Assembly: GCF_030444335.1 (NCBI RefSeq)
Contig: NZ_CP128595.1
Span: 2,432,501-2,496,500 of the forward strand
Direction of reading: 5' to 3'
DNA length: 64,000 nt
Origin: Polaribacter huanghezhanensis
GTDB taxonomy: Bacteria; Bacteroidota; Bacteroidia; Flavobacteriales; Flavobacteriaceae
The notes beneath the pieces were generated by a model. It had not been told where the DNA came from. It saw nothing but the letters and a program-made list of their open reading frames with translations, and ran no database searches. The position numbers were made by a program, and so were the translations under genes. Below are positions 20,743 through 26,567 of this stretch, piece after piece. Within the stretch, counting starts at the first letter, position 1. Each line of letters opens with the position of its first letter.

Positions 20743-20925
20743 AAAGTAAATTAATTTATTCTTTTCCGTTGATTAACTCTTCCATTAGTTACACTAGCTA
20801 CCTTCAATCAAAACATATTTTGATTTTGCTAATGCTCAAGGAGATATTTAAAATTAAGACTTACTTTTATCTTTTATTCTACTCTCCTCGAACTAAAACA
20901 GAAATAAATTAGGAATTACAAAAAA

Positions 20926-20962
20926 TGTCCGTAAATTTGTCCGTGTACGCAAAAACGTCCGT
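20926..20962. repeat. three GTCCGT direct repeats upstream of the methyltransferase
   Basis: GTCCGT occurs at 20927-20932, 20939-20944 and 20957-20962, with start-to-start spacings of 12 and 18 bases. The last copy is 8 bases before the start codon. The repeats could be sites bound by the arm-type DNA-binding domain encoded immediately downstream, giving autoregulation. This role is inferred. Confidence 0.6.
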
Positions 20963-20970
20963 GAATAATT

Positions 20971-23178
20971 ATGGCAACAATTAATTTTTATTTAGACAAA
21001 CCTGACAAAAAAGGGTTTGCACCAATTCATCTACGAATAAACTGTAACGGAAGTCAAATTAAGGTTTCTACAGGACAGAAAATAGAACCAAAAAACTTCA
21101 ATAAATCTAAACAAAAAGCGATTGGACTAAGTGTTGAATCTCACGAAATTAATCATTATTTAGACTTTTTAAGAAAAAGAACAGATGAACTCCTGCACCA
21201 TTCCAACAAGAAAACCTTTATTCAAGACGAAGTTAAAAGCTCATTAAACGAACATATAGAAAACTACAAAGAAAGCAACAATGTAAATATTGTCAAAGAA
21301 CAGGTTGCTCTTTATGGAAAACCATTCACTTTTGTAGATTTATTTGCTGGAGCTGGCGGTTTTAGTGAAGGTTTTTTACAAGCTGAACATAACAATAAAT
21401 TCTTTGATTTCGTTGTTGCCAACGACATCAATGAAAATTGCGAATTAACTCACGTTGTTCGCTATAATCATCAATTAGGTTTGGATGCTGAGTTTTTAAA
21501 ACAAGATATTACTGAACCAGATTTTTTAGACAATTTATTAGAAAAAATTAATGGACGTAAAATTGACGTTGTTTGTGGAGGACCACCTTGTCAAAGTTTC
21601 AGTCTTGCAGGAAAACGAAAAAAATTCGATAAAAAAGACGACCTTTTTTCTCACTACTTAGAAGTCATTAAGGTTTTACAACCTAAATACTTTGTGATGG
21701 AAAATGTAAAAGGCATTTTGACAAAAGAAGGTGGAAAAATAAAAGAATTGATTATCAAAGAAATCAATTCTATTGTTGACACAAAAGAAATTCCATTACT
21801 AAATACATTCATCAAAAAAATACGGAAAGAATCAAATTCATTTCTTTTCGATAGTATTGTAAAAAGGGTTGAGCTTGAAAAATTACTTGAAAAAGATAAG
21901 GAAACTGGAAAAGCTGATTTCATCAGCTTTGTAGAAAGTAAATTTAAAAAACTGACGCCAAAAATTGCAGACTACAAAACCAGTAAAACAGACGAAAACA
22001 TTAATACAATTCGTCACGGTTTTAACATTTTAGCAAGAACAAAAGAATGGGAAAAATTAAAGCGTGACATTATCAAAGAAAAAGATTTTTGCAATATCGA
22101 TAGTGACGACTTTGCAAATGCCTTTACAGATTTTCTAACAGAAATAAGCTCTGAAAATGTAATTTCAAAAATTGAAAATTCATTTAAAGCCTTAAGAGTT
22201 CCAACAAACTACAAAAAGGATTGTGAGGATATTATAACTGCCTTAAAAATCTACACAACATCTTTTGATGAAACTATCGAGGTTTTAAAATCTCATTGTA
22301 ACACATTACAAAAAAAAGAATTAAAGACTATTCTTGAAAGTATTAGACTTTATAAAATAGAGCAACCATTTGTCGCAAACGCATCAAATTATGGAGTACC
22401 TCAAAATAGAGAAAGAGTGCTTTTTATTGGTTGTCGTAAAGATCAAAAGTATATTTCAGAAATTCCTGCAACAGTTTCCGAAGAAGAAAAAGTAACCATT
22501 TTTGAAGCTTTGTATGATTTGGACTTTATTGGTAATAACCAAGAAGCTCGTCGTTATGAAGAAATTAATATTTCTGCTCAATACAACGGAACTGCAAAGA
22601 AAATGACTAAACTTCTTAAAAAAAGAAAAATTGATGGAAAGCCAATTTCTAAAGGAGGAAAATCATTTGCAGAATGGTCAAAAAAAGGGAGGTTAATTGC
22701 ACGCTTTAAACCACAAACAAAACCTTTTTACGTGAAGAATAATGAAGGCTTGGAGAACGGAGAAAAATATTTTGATGTACTCAACAATCACAAAACCAGT
22801 AACCAAAACGATACTGTAATTGAAAGACTTGGTGTCATTCTAAAAAATGGTAATTATAGACAAGCTCAACCAGAACTTAAAAAGTTAGATCTTTCAACAA
22901 ACAAACGCAACTACAATGTTTTAAAACCTGACGAACAAAGCTCAACAATAATGACTATTGCAGATGATTACATTCATTATAATTCACCAAGGTCTTTGAC
23001 AGTTAGAGAAATGGCACGTTTACAATCATTTGATGACTCTTTTGTTTTTCAAGGAAAACGCTCAACTGGAGGAAATAATAGAAAAACTGAAGTTCCACAA
23101 TATACTTTAGTAGGTAATGCTGTACCACCTTTATTAGCAAGAGCAGTAGCAACAGAAATATTAAAAAATATTAAATAA
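20971..23178 (+). CDS. cytosine-5 DNA methyltransferase with N-terminal recombinase-type arm DNA-binding domain
   Basis: This 735-residue protein joins two parts. Residues 1-100 (INFYLDKPDKKGFAPIHLRI; STGQKIEPKNFN; INHYLDFLRKRTDELL) match the arm DNA-binding domain found at the N-terminus of Bacteroidota tyrosine recombinases. Residues 118-735 are a C5 methyltransferase with motif I FVDLFAGAGGFSEGF (121-135), catalytic Cys207 in GGPPCQSF, ENVKG (244-248), QNRERV (478-483), then LTVREMARLQSF and GNAVPP. Between ENV and QNRERV there is an insertion of about 200 residues rich in charged helices, much longer than usual. No recombinase catalytic domain is present. It is the first gene of a tight four-gene operon and presumably provides self-protection for the nuclease gene at 25389. 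Confidence 0.9.
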   Translation: MATINFYLDKPDKKGFAPIHLRINCNGSQIKVSTGQKIEPKNFNKSKQKAIGLSVESHEINHYLDFLRKRTDELLHHSNKKTFIQDEVKSSLNEHIENYKESNNVNIVKEQVALYGKPFTFVDLFAGAGGFSEGFLQAEHNNKFFDFVVANDINENCELTHVVRYNHQLGLDAEFLKQDITEPDFLDNLLEKINGRKIDVVCGGPPCQSFSLAGKRKKFDKKDDLFSHYLEVIKVLQPKYFVMENVKGILTKEGGKIKELIIKEINSIVDTKEIPLLNTFIKKIRKESNSFLFDSIVKRVELEKLLEKDKETGKADFISFVESKFKKLTPKIADYKTSKTDENINTIRHGFNILARTKEWEKLKRDIIKEKDFCNIDSDDFANAFTDFLTEISSENVISKIENSFKALRVPTNYKKDCEDIITALKIYTTSFDETIEVLKSHCNTLQKKELKTILESIRLYKIEQPFVANASNYGVPQNRERVLFIGCRKDQKYISEIPATVSEEEKVTIFEALYDLDFIGNNQEARRYEEINISAQYNGTAKKMTKLLKKRKIDGKPISKGGKSFAEWSKKGRLIARFKPQTKPFYVKNNEGLENGEKYFDVLNNHKTSNQNDTVIERLGVILKNGNYRQAQPELKKLDLSTNKRNYNVLKPDEQSSTIMTIADDYIHYNSPRSLTVREMARLQSFDDSFVFQGKRSTGGNNRKTEVPQYTLVGNAVPPLLARAVATEILKNIK

Positions 23179-23183
23179 AAAAT

Positions 23184-24329
23184 ATGAAATCACTTGAAAT
23201 AATTGGTTTTACCAAGGATTACAGAACCAACACCAATGTTATATATGCACAAATATTAGTGAAAGAATATTTTGACTTAATTGGCGATAATTATAATAAA
23301 TTCCAACTTCAAAGGAAGAAAGAAACTCATAAAGGTTACAAGAGATTAATGGAAGACTTGGAAGAAGGAGCTTTACTACCTGGAATCACTTTAGCAATTG
23401 AGCCTAGTAAAGCTAAAGAGTTTATTCCCTTAATTGAGAAAAAAGCTAAAGAAAAGATTTCGGCACAATTAGAATCTATAAAAGATAGTATTTACATTCT
23501 TGACGGCCTTCAACGAACTCATAAAATAAAAGAATTAATTGATTCGAAAATTGAGTTTAAAGCTGAGCAAAAACTACTTTTAGAAATTTGGGTTGAACCT
23601 GAAATTTCTCATTTGGTATATAGACTTATAGTTTTAAATTCAGGGCAGAAACCTATGTCGATGAGACATCAAATAGAATTATTATTTACTACTATGAGAA
23701 CAACTTTAATAAAGGATATACCAACATTAGAGATATTAGTAGAAAACAAGGAAGATAAAAGAACTAAAGCCTCTCAGTTTCCATTTGAAAGACTTGTAAC
23801 TGCTTATTACAGTTTTCTTACCAAATCACCTGAAGTGGACAAGACAACTATCGTTTCACAAAAAATTGTAGAAGAAAAAATTATGGATGAAACTGAAGAA
23901 TATTTGTCAGATAGTTTTGCTTCTTTCAAAGGCTATTTAAAAAAATATTGTGAATTAGATAACGAGTTGTTTAGAATTTGTGACAATTCTGATCTTAAAT
24001 CATTTAGAAACTGGTTTGCTGATGCCAATGTTATTAATTCGTTTTTCTCATCAATTGGAAAGTTACACGAGGCAAAAGCTGGAAGAATTGAAAAGGCAAT
24101 AAATGTTCTAATTGAAAAATTAAAAAGTGCTCAAAATGGTGAGGATATTATCAAATTAGAAGAATACAAAAAAATAAAAGAAGAAGTAGCTGACCCGAAA
24201 AAATATAATGTTGGATTTGCCACAAGGTTATTGTTATCAAAATCTTTTGATGAATACTTTAGAGATGAAGGAGATAGAACTTTACATGAATGTTGGATAG
24301 AATTATCTTTGGATTTAAAAAAGGATTAA
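23184..24329 (+). CDS. DGQHR/DndB-like protein in restriction operon
   Basis: This 381-residue cytoplasmic protein begins five bases after the methyltransferase gene. It contains YILDGLQRTHKI at about 104-115, resembling the DGQHR/DUF262 signature, and IVLNSGQKPMSMRHQIELL at about 149-167, the partner motif of that family. The family includes DndB-type regulators and ParB-like proteins of DNA-modification defence systems. Whether it binds DNA, hydrolyses nucleotide or regulates the operon cannot be told. The C-terminal half is helical and unrecognised. Confidence 0.65.
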   Translation: MKSLEIIGFTKDYRTNTNVIYAQILVKEYFDLIGDNYNKFQLQRKKETHKGYKRLMEDLEEGALLPGITLAIEPSKAKEFIPLIEKKAKEKISAQLESIKDSIYILDGLQRTHKIKELIDSKIEFKAEQKLLLEIWVEPEISHLVYRLIVLNSGQKPMSMRHQIELLFTTMRTTLIKDIPTLEILVENKEDKRTKASQFPFERLVTAYYSFLTKSPEVDKTTIVSQKIVEEKIMDETEEYLSDSFASFKGYLKKYCELDNELFRICDNSDLKSFRNWFADANVINSFFSSIGKLHEAKAGRIEKAINVLIEKLKSAQNGEDIIKLEEYKKIKEEVADPKKYNVGFATRLLLSKSFDEYFRDEGDRTLHECWIELSLDLKKD

Positions 24330-24330
24330 T

Positions 24331-25392
24331 ATGATCTTCGAACATATAATTGCAATAAAAGATGACGATGACTTTTTAGAAGACATTGAAATAATAGAAT
24401 TTTTAGGATATCCTTGTATAGATGATAAAATAGCTTTACCAATTAATACATCCTTCTCGTTTAACAGAAATAATACCATTGATATTAAATATGAATCTGG
24501 TATCAGTATTGGTGAAATAAAATTTTTAAAGGATAGAAAAATTGAAGATATAGAAGGTTTACCAAACGATGAAAGAATATGTTTCTATATCGATTATGAT
24601 CAAGAACATATCGTAGACCAAAGTCATACTTTCAAGTTTGATTACATAATTATAAATAAAAGGAATTTTAATAAATATAAGTCAAAATATAAAAAGACTT
24701 CTTCGATTTGGGGAAGTTTCTTTCATATTGATGATAAGCCTAATATTATATTTGATAAGAAAAAAACAACAACTAGTTTATCAGTCTCTAGTAATTTAAA
24801 AATAAGAAATAGTATTTATAAAGACAATCTATTTCTATCTATAAATGAGCCCAATCCATTTAATCGTTTTTTAAAGTTATATCATCTATTGGAGTTACAA
24901 TTTGATATGCATACTGCTCAAAAAATTAAAGCATTAGTTGAAGAAGGAAATAAAGAGAAAGAAATTAGCAGTAAACTAAAAGAATATACACGTGAGGAGA
25001 TAAATAGACTCGTGTCAATCATTAGAGAACGTTGTGTTGATTTAGTATCACTAACAAATACAATGAATACCATTGAACCTTTTAAGGAAAAAGCAATCAA
25101 AATATTTTATCAATATGGTAAAGAAAGTAACCCTTTGAGGAGAACTAATGATTTTAGAAACATTGTTGATGAAGAAGGAAGTTTTAGCAATCAAGCCTTT
25201 GTTGAATCTCAAGGACATACCTATAATATAATAATACCTAAAATATGTGCTTATTGGATATATCGTGTTAGGTCTTCAATTGCTCATAATAAGTTTGGAG
25301 AATACATAATGGATAAAAATGACGAAGAATTTATTGTTGAATTTGCCGAACCACTACTTAAAGAAGTTGTTACTCAATGTTTTAAAATATGA
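24331..25392 (+). CDS. HEPN-like protein in restriction operon
   Basis: This 353-residue protein is acidic and rich in Ile, Lys and Asp at the N-terminus. Its C-terminal region is helical and carries RSSIAH (residues 314-319), an RxxxxH motif in the local setting YRVRSSIAHNKFGE that is typical of HEPN domains, many of which are RNases in toxin and defence systems. It starts one base after the upstream stop and its last four bases overlap the start of the nuclease gene (ATGA), so it is translationally coupled to both. The fold assignment is inferred from the motif; the N-terminal 200 residues are unrecognised. Confidence 0.6.
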   Translation: MIFEHIIAIKDDDDFLEDIEIIEFLGYPCIDDKIALPINTSFSFNRNNTIDIKYESGISIGEIKFLKDRKIEDIEGLPNDERICFYIDYDQEHIVDQSHTFKFDYIIINKRNFNKYKSKYKKTSSIWGSFFHIDDKPNIIFDKKKTTTSLSVSSNLKIRNSIYKDNLFLSINEPNPFNRFLKLYHLLELQFDMHTAQKIKALVEEGNKEKEISSKLKEYTREEINRLVSIIRERCVDLVSLTNTMNTIEPFKEKAIKIFYQYGKESNPLRRTNDFRNIVDEEGSFSNQAFVESQGHTYNIIIPKICAYWIYRVRSSIAHNKFGEYIMDKNDEEFIVEFAEPLLKEVVTQCFKI

Positions 25393-26567
25393 GAAAACTT
25401 ACAGAAACAGAACAAGGAAAGATAAAATTACTGACCAAAAACCAAGTTTCTCTTACATTAATTGAACCAACAGAAACAGGTCTAAAGAAATCCATAATGG
25501 ATGCAACTGGTTCTGTACGAAGTTATTTGAAAAGTGAAAACATCCACGATTACGAATTACAAAAACAAGGTACAGAGAGCAAAATAATGATTCCAGCAAG
25601 TATTCATACAGGTTTTAATACTATAAAATCACAAGCATCTTTATATAGACCTACAACCAAAAAAGGAGACCCAAGAATCTGGTTTTATGGTTTGACAAAA
25701 ATCGCTGACCCAAATGATATTATTGCAATCACATATTACGATGATAGTTTTCAAGCTTTCAACTTGACAAAATTAGATGTTAATGTATTGATTAATTCTT
25801 CAATTCAAAATCCATTTCAGTATTTAATTAACGCAATCAATAATACAGAAAACGAAGTGGCATTTGAACTTTTAGAAATGTTAAGAAAAATTGCAAGTGC
25901 TGGCCCAATTCCTTCAATGGTAGATGCTGATACTTCTGTTGGTCGAACACTCGAAACAGCACTTGGAATAAATATCAATTCTTCTAAGGAACCTGATTAC
26001 AAAGGAATTGAGTTAAAGTCATTCAGAAATAGCAGAACAAACCGTAAAAATTTATTTGCCCAAGTACCAGATTGGAAATTGAGTAAATTTAAAAGTTCAG
26101 GAGAAATTTTAGAAACTTTTGGATATGAACGTGAAGATGATTTTAAATTGTATTGTACAGTTTCAGCAATAACTAGAAATTCACAAGGTTTAAACTTAAG
26201 GCTTGATAGTGACATTAAACAATTGATTGAAAATTCTGATAAACCAGAAGTTGGAGATTTTGTTGTTTGGACTTTGGACAAACTTCATAATCGATTAAGA
26301 GAAAAGCATAAAGAAACATTTTGGGTTGAAGCCGAAAGCACAACAATAAATAACCGAGAACATTTTCAATATAAACTAGTTGAGCATACAAAAAAGCCTA
26401 TTACTACACAATTTGATTTATTAATTGAACAAGGAATAATTACGCTTGACCATTTAATTAAACGAACAAAAACAGGAGGAGCAAAAGAAAAAGGTCCTAT
26501 TTTTAAAATCAAACCTGAAGGAATTGAGCTATTGTTTCCACCAAGTGAAAGTTATAGTTTAATCTAA
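25389..26567 (+). CDS. MvaI/BcnI-family type II restriction endonuclease
   Basis: This is a predicted DNA nuclease of 392 residues. The C-terminal half has the family pattern: DADTSVGRTLETALGI (Glu189), then the catalytic PDYKGIELKS with Asp203, Glu208 and Lys210, followed by a segment (TNRKNLFAQVPDW) expected to contact DNA. Characterised relatives cut within CC(W/S)GG-type sites, often as monomers that nick; the site here is unknown. The N-terminal 170 residues are extra relative to the roughly 240-residue MvaI/BcnI core and may add a targeting domain. It is the last gene of the operon; the next gene follows 204 bases later without a clear terminator. Confidence 0.82.
   Translation: MRKLTETEQGKIKLLTKNQVSLTLIEPTETGLKKSIMDATGSVRSYLKSENIHDYELQKQGTESKIMIPASIHTGFNTIKSQASLYRPTTKKGDPRIWFYGLTKIADPNDIIAITYYDDSFQAFNLTKLDVNVLINSSIQNPFQYLINAINNTENEVAFELLEMLRKIASAGPIPSMVDADTSVGRTLETALGININSSKEPDYKGIELKSFRNSRTNRKNLFAQVPDWKLSKFKSSGEILETFGYEREDDFKLYCTVSAITRNSQGLNLRLDSDIKQLIENSDKPEVGDFVVWTLDKLHNRLREKHKETFWVEAESTTINNREHFQYKLVEHTKKPITTQFDLLIEQGIITLDHLIKRTKTGGAKEKGPIFKIKPEGIELLFPPSESYSLI

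Follow-up and report, generated by a model that had tools for sequence, protein, structure and literature searches.

Why should a cytosine methyltransferase begin with the DNA-binding arm domain of an integrase? The question is raised by the open reading frame at 20971-23178 (plus strand) in the window analyzed here, a stretch of 64,000 nucleotides from Polaribacter huanghezhanensis, in which a 735-aa protein consists of an arm domain followed by a complete C5 cytosine methyltransferase. A first-pass annotation of this DNA suggested that the domain had been captured from an integrase and gives the enzyme either a sequence-specific regulator or a second targeting module. We propose that the gene heads a Type II restriction-modification operon and that the methyltransferase, by way of its N-terminal arm domain, represses the promoter from which it is expressed. 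We give this reading a probability of about 0.78, in the absence of any binding or expression data. The features on which it rests are listed in Table 1.

Table 1. Features of the arm-methyltransferase operon, with window positions and the basis for each assignment
Feature	Positions	Strand	Basis
Predicted operator GTCCGT-AAATTT-GTCCGT-GTACGC-AAAAAC-GTCCGT, 36 bp	20927..20962	+	Cross-relative conservation; no binding data
Predicted -7 box TAAATTTG, matches TAnnTTTG	20932..20939	+	Fits sigma-A consensus; overlaps operator
Arm-DNA-bind_5 domain, residues ~1-77	20971..21201	+	Pfam, predicted fold (three strands and helix), Foldseek
Helical linker from arm domain to methyltransferase, residues 78-118	21202..21324	+	Predicted structure
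C5 cytosine methyltransferase, residues 119-735	21325..23178	+	Profiles; main catalytic motifs all present
DzbA (DUF262/DGQHR-like), Dazbog	23184..24329	+	PADLOC PDLC03835, E 3e-97
DzbB, Dazbog	24331..25392	+	PADLOC PDLC03836, E 2e-50
MvaI/BcnI-family restriction endonuclease, cognate to the methyltransferase	25389..26567	+	PF15515, E 4.8e-76

Profile searches bore out the arm-domain pattern that had been noticed at the N terminus. The Pfam family PF17293 (Arm-DNA-bind_5) matched residues 9 to 71 when the whole protein was searched (E 1.2e-6, 29.3 bits) and matched more strongly when residues 1 to 118 were searched alone (E 2.6e-8, 34.7 bits), both scores being above the curated gathering score of 22.6 bits; the domain proper covers about the first 77 residues, and residues 85 to 114 make up a predicted helical linker. 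The methyltransferase part matched PF00145 (E 2.7e-53) and TIGR00675, with an insert of about 200 residues between its two Pfam segments. Its C5 motifs were found at residues 123 (DLFAGAGG), 203 (GGPPCQSFS), 243 (MENVKG), 478 (QNRERV), and 714 (VGNAVPP), and the catalytic ones (PCQ, ENV, and QxRxR) were largely invariant across 31 aligned relatives. No profile for a recombinase core-binding or catalytic domain matched anywhere in the 735-aa protein, again as the annotation had it. The protein therefore does not qualify as a tyrosine recombinase, which would need both of these domains together with the RKHRH pentad and the tyrosine, because the remainder is a methyltransferase.

The predicted structure agrees with the profile match. 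An AlphaFold2 model of residues 1 to 119, built from 48 aligned N termini, has strands at residues 3-8, 17-25, and 28-38 and a helix at 55-77, with a pLDDT of about 90 across residues 1 to 70. The arm-domain claim would have fallen if there had been no significant profile hit and if the predicted fold had been unlike a three-stranded sheet with a C-terminal helix; neither was the case. Foldseek comparison with the BFVD viral models returned integrases as the best three matches, all with a probability of 1.00. In the PDB, a fold search with the predicted arm domain gave no significant chain, and a sequence search using the arm-domain profile gave a chance match only. The full-length model was poor beyond the arm domain and could not be used there. 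An N-terminal helix-turn-helix of the M.SsoII type is not present, since by both Pfam and fold the N terminus of this methyltransferase is an arm domain.

Fusions of integrase fragments could arise near mobile elements, and the arm domain might be nothing more than the degenerate passenger of a chance fusion, without DNA binding. This is scarcely credible: the first two arm strands (mean conservation 0.95 for residues 1-15 and 0.88 for residues 16-30) come close to the catalytic core in conservation, and relatives with as little as 58% protein identity still have the fusion. A scan of bacterial genomes recovered 75 loci, and the N terminus was kept in all 70 of those with a readable start, at 67 to 95% identity; these 70 full-length relatives belong to the Bacteroidota. 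That scan was biased toward close relatives. When 398 genomes of the order were searched at the protein level, with less bias of this kind, five intact genes and one broken copy came to light; all five are full length (from residue 1 or 2 to the end), the most distant at the 58% just mentioned. A broken methyltransferase copy (L154 and L155, on G316:C8) has several stop codons and an unmatched N terminus, and the repeat pattern described below was not found in its genome.

The origin of the fusion can be inferred in outline. Among 81 arm domains, those of the methyltransferases formed one clan with a support of 0.977, which fits a single capture. Three findings thus support capture from an integrase, as first suggested: the Pfam match, the integrases found around the domain in sequence and fold searches, and the one-clan tree. 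The direction, from integrase to methyltransferase, is inferred from the far greater diversity of the integrases; the probable donor is an integrase gene that supplied the arm domain and its repeat operator together. Viral contigs scanned with the methyltransferase gave no relative, and when they were scanned with the repeat pattern, the inspected ones among 53 matches were GC-rich or GT-rich repetitive sequence or coding sequence without an arm gene. Plasmids and phages yielded only methyltransferases, all below 60% identity and none reaching 80% query coverage, and most of the matches listed begin at or close to the methyltransferase domain. An arm-like open frame of 627 aa in genome G399 (L186) was discarded, as no arm-domain open reading frame of that length was found among the largest ones read. 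Locus L002 (G000:C1:430117-430329) holds a second arm-domain open reading frame in its genome, only 165 aa long; it could be an integrase that has been truncated or an arm protein standing on its own.

A clue to what the arm domain does lies just upstream of the gene, where exact GTCCGT hexamers at 20927, 20939, and 20957 and a degenerate copy at 20945 are set in a 6-bp register, with a 12-bp pitch inside each pair. The 3′ end of this 36-bp block is 8 bp upstream of the methyltransferase ATG. Such a block precedes the ATG in 70 of 70 relatives with a readable start. Among 11 representatives with less than 80% protein identity, mean pairwise identity was 88% over the block and 98% at the hexamer positions; the 30-bp flank before the block reached 42%, and the gene's own fourfold-degenerate sites 36%. 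Some variation was apparent: four relatives (L057, L061, L076, and L190) have a shortened operator with two hexamers only, and one (L044) has a single exact hexamer among near-matches. The distance from block to ATG ranges from 3 to 15 bp among the representatives. The block is not an extension of the coding sequence, because this distance varies and the changes in the spacers alter the reading frames.

The predicted operator also overlaps a predicted promoter. In flavobacteria, the main sigma factor, sigma-A, has TAnnTTTG as its -7 box, placed at -12 to -5 (PMC9723704). Here it is spelled jointly by hexamer 1, spacer 1, and hexamer 2, and the most variable columns of spacer 1 are the two n positions of the box, so that conservation of the spacer fits a -7 box. 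From this placement, transcription is predicted to start near 20944, inside hexamer 2. The promoter prediction rests on the -7 box; at -33 the window has at best a weak TTG. A short out-of-frame open reading frame at 20925-20984, MSVNLSVYAKTSVNNYGNN, runs across the operator and into the start codon, and its frame is not conserved in relatives. Since the block is probably transcribed in part and this short frame is open in the window, one could argue that the block works as RNA or as a leader peptide and not as a DNA site. We consider this very improbable. The first hexamer is upstream of the predicted transcription start, the leader ATG is missing from several relatives, and across the varying distances to the ATG the spacer changes alter codons whereas the hexamers stay constant.

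Reading the block as a DNA site does not by itself say what it is for. A DNA-binding-type domain tethered to a methyltransferase could be a second targeting module that steers methylation to particular genomic places, with the promoter repeats as one target of several. However, the repeat array is single copy in the 2.59-Mb genome, at the promoter of the arm-methyltransferase gene itself, and the wider sample of the order contained no full array away from such a gene. Among the 398 genomes, the two-hexamer pattern occurred in 12; all five intact methyltransferase genes have the operator directly upstream, and the other matches lack the third repeat and are not ahead of an arm-methyltransferase gene. 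Because the genome holds no second array, the targeting module, one of the two functions first put forward, is disfavored, and we regard it as quite unlikely.

The same survey bears on which gene the operator belongs to. In 151 genomes of the family, the operator was present at five of five methyltransferase genes, compared to none of 25 arm-integrase loci, around which no pair of GTCCGT was found at all; the operator sequence is therefore specific to the methyltransferase group. In six relatives (L061, L062, L069, L070, L071, and L073), the MvaI-type nuclease is absent and an unrelated convergent gene is found there, yet the arm-methyltransferase and its operator are kept. This means that the operator follows the methyltransferase and not the nuclease. 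To judge from gene content alone, the methyltransferase is the only constant gene able to read the operator. Without binding data on the methyltransferase, another regulator, from the host or from the module, might still bind a real operator while the arm domain serves dimerization or contact with the nuclease. This remains unlikely, although less so than the other alternatives. No other gene is constantly present, the operator travels with the methyltransferase across many genera and stays with it where the nuclease has been replaced, and arm-domain genes generally carry such repeats.

This last point comes from arm genes that have nothing to do with methyltransferases. Direct repeats ahead of the ATG were first noticed at some integrase genes whose arm domains are related to the one in the window. 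Upstream of 69 independent genes of this kind, direct repeats peaked sharply at spacings of 11 bp (9 observed compared to 0.55 expected) and 12 bp (10 compared to 0.4), with a weaker peak at 21 to 22 bp; inverted repeats of the same genes showed no comparable spacing peak. With the threshold and the spacing fixed beforehand, a second independent set of 56 arm-integrase genes gave 24 with repeats at an 11- to 12-bp pitch, compared to 1.1% in shuffles (binomial P = 1.6e-32), with no clear enrichment at any other spacing between 8 and 19 bp. In both sets combined, such repeats precede 43 of 124 arm genes, and their sequences are of many kinds. A TAnnTTTG box is found within the same 70 bp in 18 of these 43 (6.3% in shuffles) and overlaps the repeats in nine, and only 3.7% of the upstream regions of other genes at the first-set loci reach the repeat threshold (spacing 10 to 14). 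The loci concerned (L161-L214, L215-L323, and L324-L412) include 8-bp direct repeats at an 11- to 12-bp pitch no more than 70 bp before the integrase ATG, such as GTTGTACC (11-bp pitch, in L306), GTTTTACC, TTGTTTGC, and GACACCAA (12-bp pitch, in L211), among others. These integrase genes connect the arm domain with helically phased direct repeats without any methyltransferase being involved. The two groups are not identical in layout: the methyltransferase hexamers are spaced 12-6-12, whereas integrase genes mostly have a single pair at 11 to 12 bp, and at integrase genes the role of the repeats may be in recombination instead of repression.

A role for the arm domain as a sequence-specific regulator, the other function first put forward, is strongly favored on two grounds: a conserved operator lies across the promoter of the gene itself, and repeats of the same kind are found at other arm-domain genes. 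A broader reading is that the integrase arm domain of the Bacteroidota, together with its own phased repeats at 11 to 12 bp over the promoter, forms a portable autoregulatory cassette for any enzyme attached to it, and that a restriction-modification methyltransferase has acquired this cassette on at least one occasion. We lean toward this reading with less confidence than toward autoregulation at this locus. If it is true, the 70 bp ahead of the start codon could reveal the DNA target of many arm domains. The phased-repeat rule would yield candidate binding sites for many integrases and a route to how arm domains read DNA.

The genes behind the methyltransferase fit a restriction-modification operon. 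The nuclease resembles R.MvaI (E 5.7e-7), and a nuclease of this family beside a methyltransferase, as found here, is one mark of an MvaI/BcnI system, another being the recognition of sites like CCWGG or CCSGG; such a nuclease occurs in 71 of 79 relatives, mostly immediately after the methyltransferase. About 160 extra N-terminal residues of the nuclease (25389-25870) lie outside the Pfam model and are conserved in relatives. In the window, the methyltransferase and nuclease genes are separated by dzbA and adjoining dzbB, which qualifies the pair as a Dazbog system. All of these genes lie downstream of the methyltransferase on the same strand with gaps of 5 bp or less or with overlaps, and for this reason they are probably coregulated with it.

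The junction between the two enzymes is itself variable. The dzbA-dzbB pair was found there in four of the 79 relatives (L019, L053, L059, and L060). As Dazbog is present in few relatives and the two enzymes are directly adjacent in most, the junction appears to be a facultative slot for defense genes under the same operator. Other cargo was seen in this slot, namely an Mrr-type nuclease in L034 (8473-9288; PF04471, E 4.6e-30) and, in L036 (8211-9925), a DUF262/GmrSD_N protein (E 1.1e-19) next to an unknown protein of 207 aa. The convergent gene that replaces the nuclease (L061:8204-9133, L070:4063-5007, and L062:8211-9158 on the minus strand; also L069, L071, and L073) encodes about 210 to 315 aa and has no informative match in Pfam or PADLOC. 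Its ESDI...IQCKTNWND looks like the core of a PD-(D/E)xK nuclease, so the gene may represent a new family of restriction endonucleases.

Autoregulation by the methyltransferase would work as follows. In a newly entered cell the TAnnTTTG promoter would be free, and the methyltransferase would be expressed together with the nuclease and, here, Dazbog behind it. As the enzyme accumulates and the genome becomes methylated, arm domains would bind the helically phased GTCCGT repeats, cover the -7 box and the transcript start, and exclude RNA polymerase. This would cap the amounts of the methyltransferase and of the products of the downstream genes. Unmethylated sites would compete with the operator for the enzyme, a titration that is inferred, as are DNA binding and repression. 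The scheme addresses a long-standing question, namely how a new host cell survives the entry of a restriction-modification system. Three transcriptional solutions are cited here: a separate controller protein may be encoded, the promoter itself may be methylated, or the methyltransferase may bind a regulatory site at the promoter of its own gene (PMC3978073). If the present model is true, the logic of the third has been built on a different fold, taken from mobile-element integrases, with a conserved operator ready for testing.

Comparison with known systems places the operon between several of them. The nuclease belongs to PF15515, as in MvaI/BcnI systems, but its partner here is a C5 enzyme with an arm domain, whereas the MvaI and BcnI methyltransferases are N4-cytosine enzymes. 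The tyrosine recombinases of the Bacteroidota with PF17293 share with the window protein the N-terminal domain, in sequence and predicted fold, and the direct repeats before the ATG; they have core-binding and catalytic domains where it has a methyltransferase. RptR (PMC12255303) is a repressor of restriction-modification systems encoded by a separate gene; transcriptional repression, proposed here, would be common to both, whereas here the regulator lies inside the methyltransferase. In prophage KplE1, the integrase IntS represses its gene intS by way of attL, which carries its arm-type sites and overlaps the promoter, an overlap common in prophages (PMC2951348). The arrangement is alike in that the gene for an arm-domain protein lies behind a promoter overlapping its own sites (predicted here) and is repressed by its product (proposed here). 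However, IntS is a recombinase with its sites in attL, and the window has no recombinase and, without a systematic search, no sign of an attachment site. Single arm-site mutations gave no derepression of intS (PMC2951348), which counts against our model, as do the lack of a significant PDB match, the poor full-length structure model, the weak or absent -33 TTG, the shortened operators of four relatives, and the different repeat spacing and possible recombination role at integrase genes.

The closest precedents are methyltransferases. M.SsoII, M.Ecl18kI, M.EcoRII, M.MspI, M.ScrFIA, and M1.LlaJI are C5 enzymes that repress their own genes; M.SsoII and M.Ecl18kI bind the regulatory site via an N-terminal region with a predicted helix-turn-helix, and M.Ecl18kI competes with RNA polymerase (PMC3978073, PMC3695355). 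The self-regulating methyltransferase is thus a known type of system. No paper naming PF17293 or describing its fusion to a methyltransferase was found in the literature searched, which is no proof of novelty, and within that literature the integrase-type fold with its repeat operator is an undescribed variant of this type. With M.SsoII and M.Ecl18kI, whose operator is distinct from the methylation site, it shares a Type II C5 methyltransferase, an N-terminal DNA-binding region, and an operator, predicted here, at its own promoter. The difference is in the means of recognition: a predicted helix-turn-helix and a 15-bp quasipalindrome in those two enzymes, compared to an integrase-type beta-sheet domain and phased direct repeats in the methyltransferase of the window.
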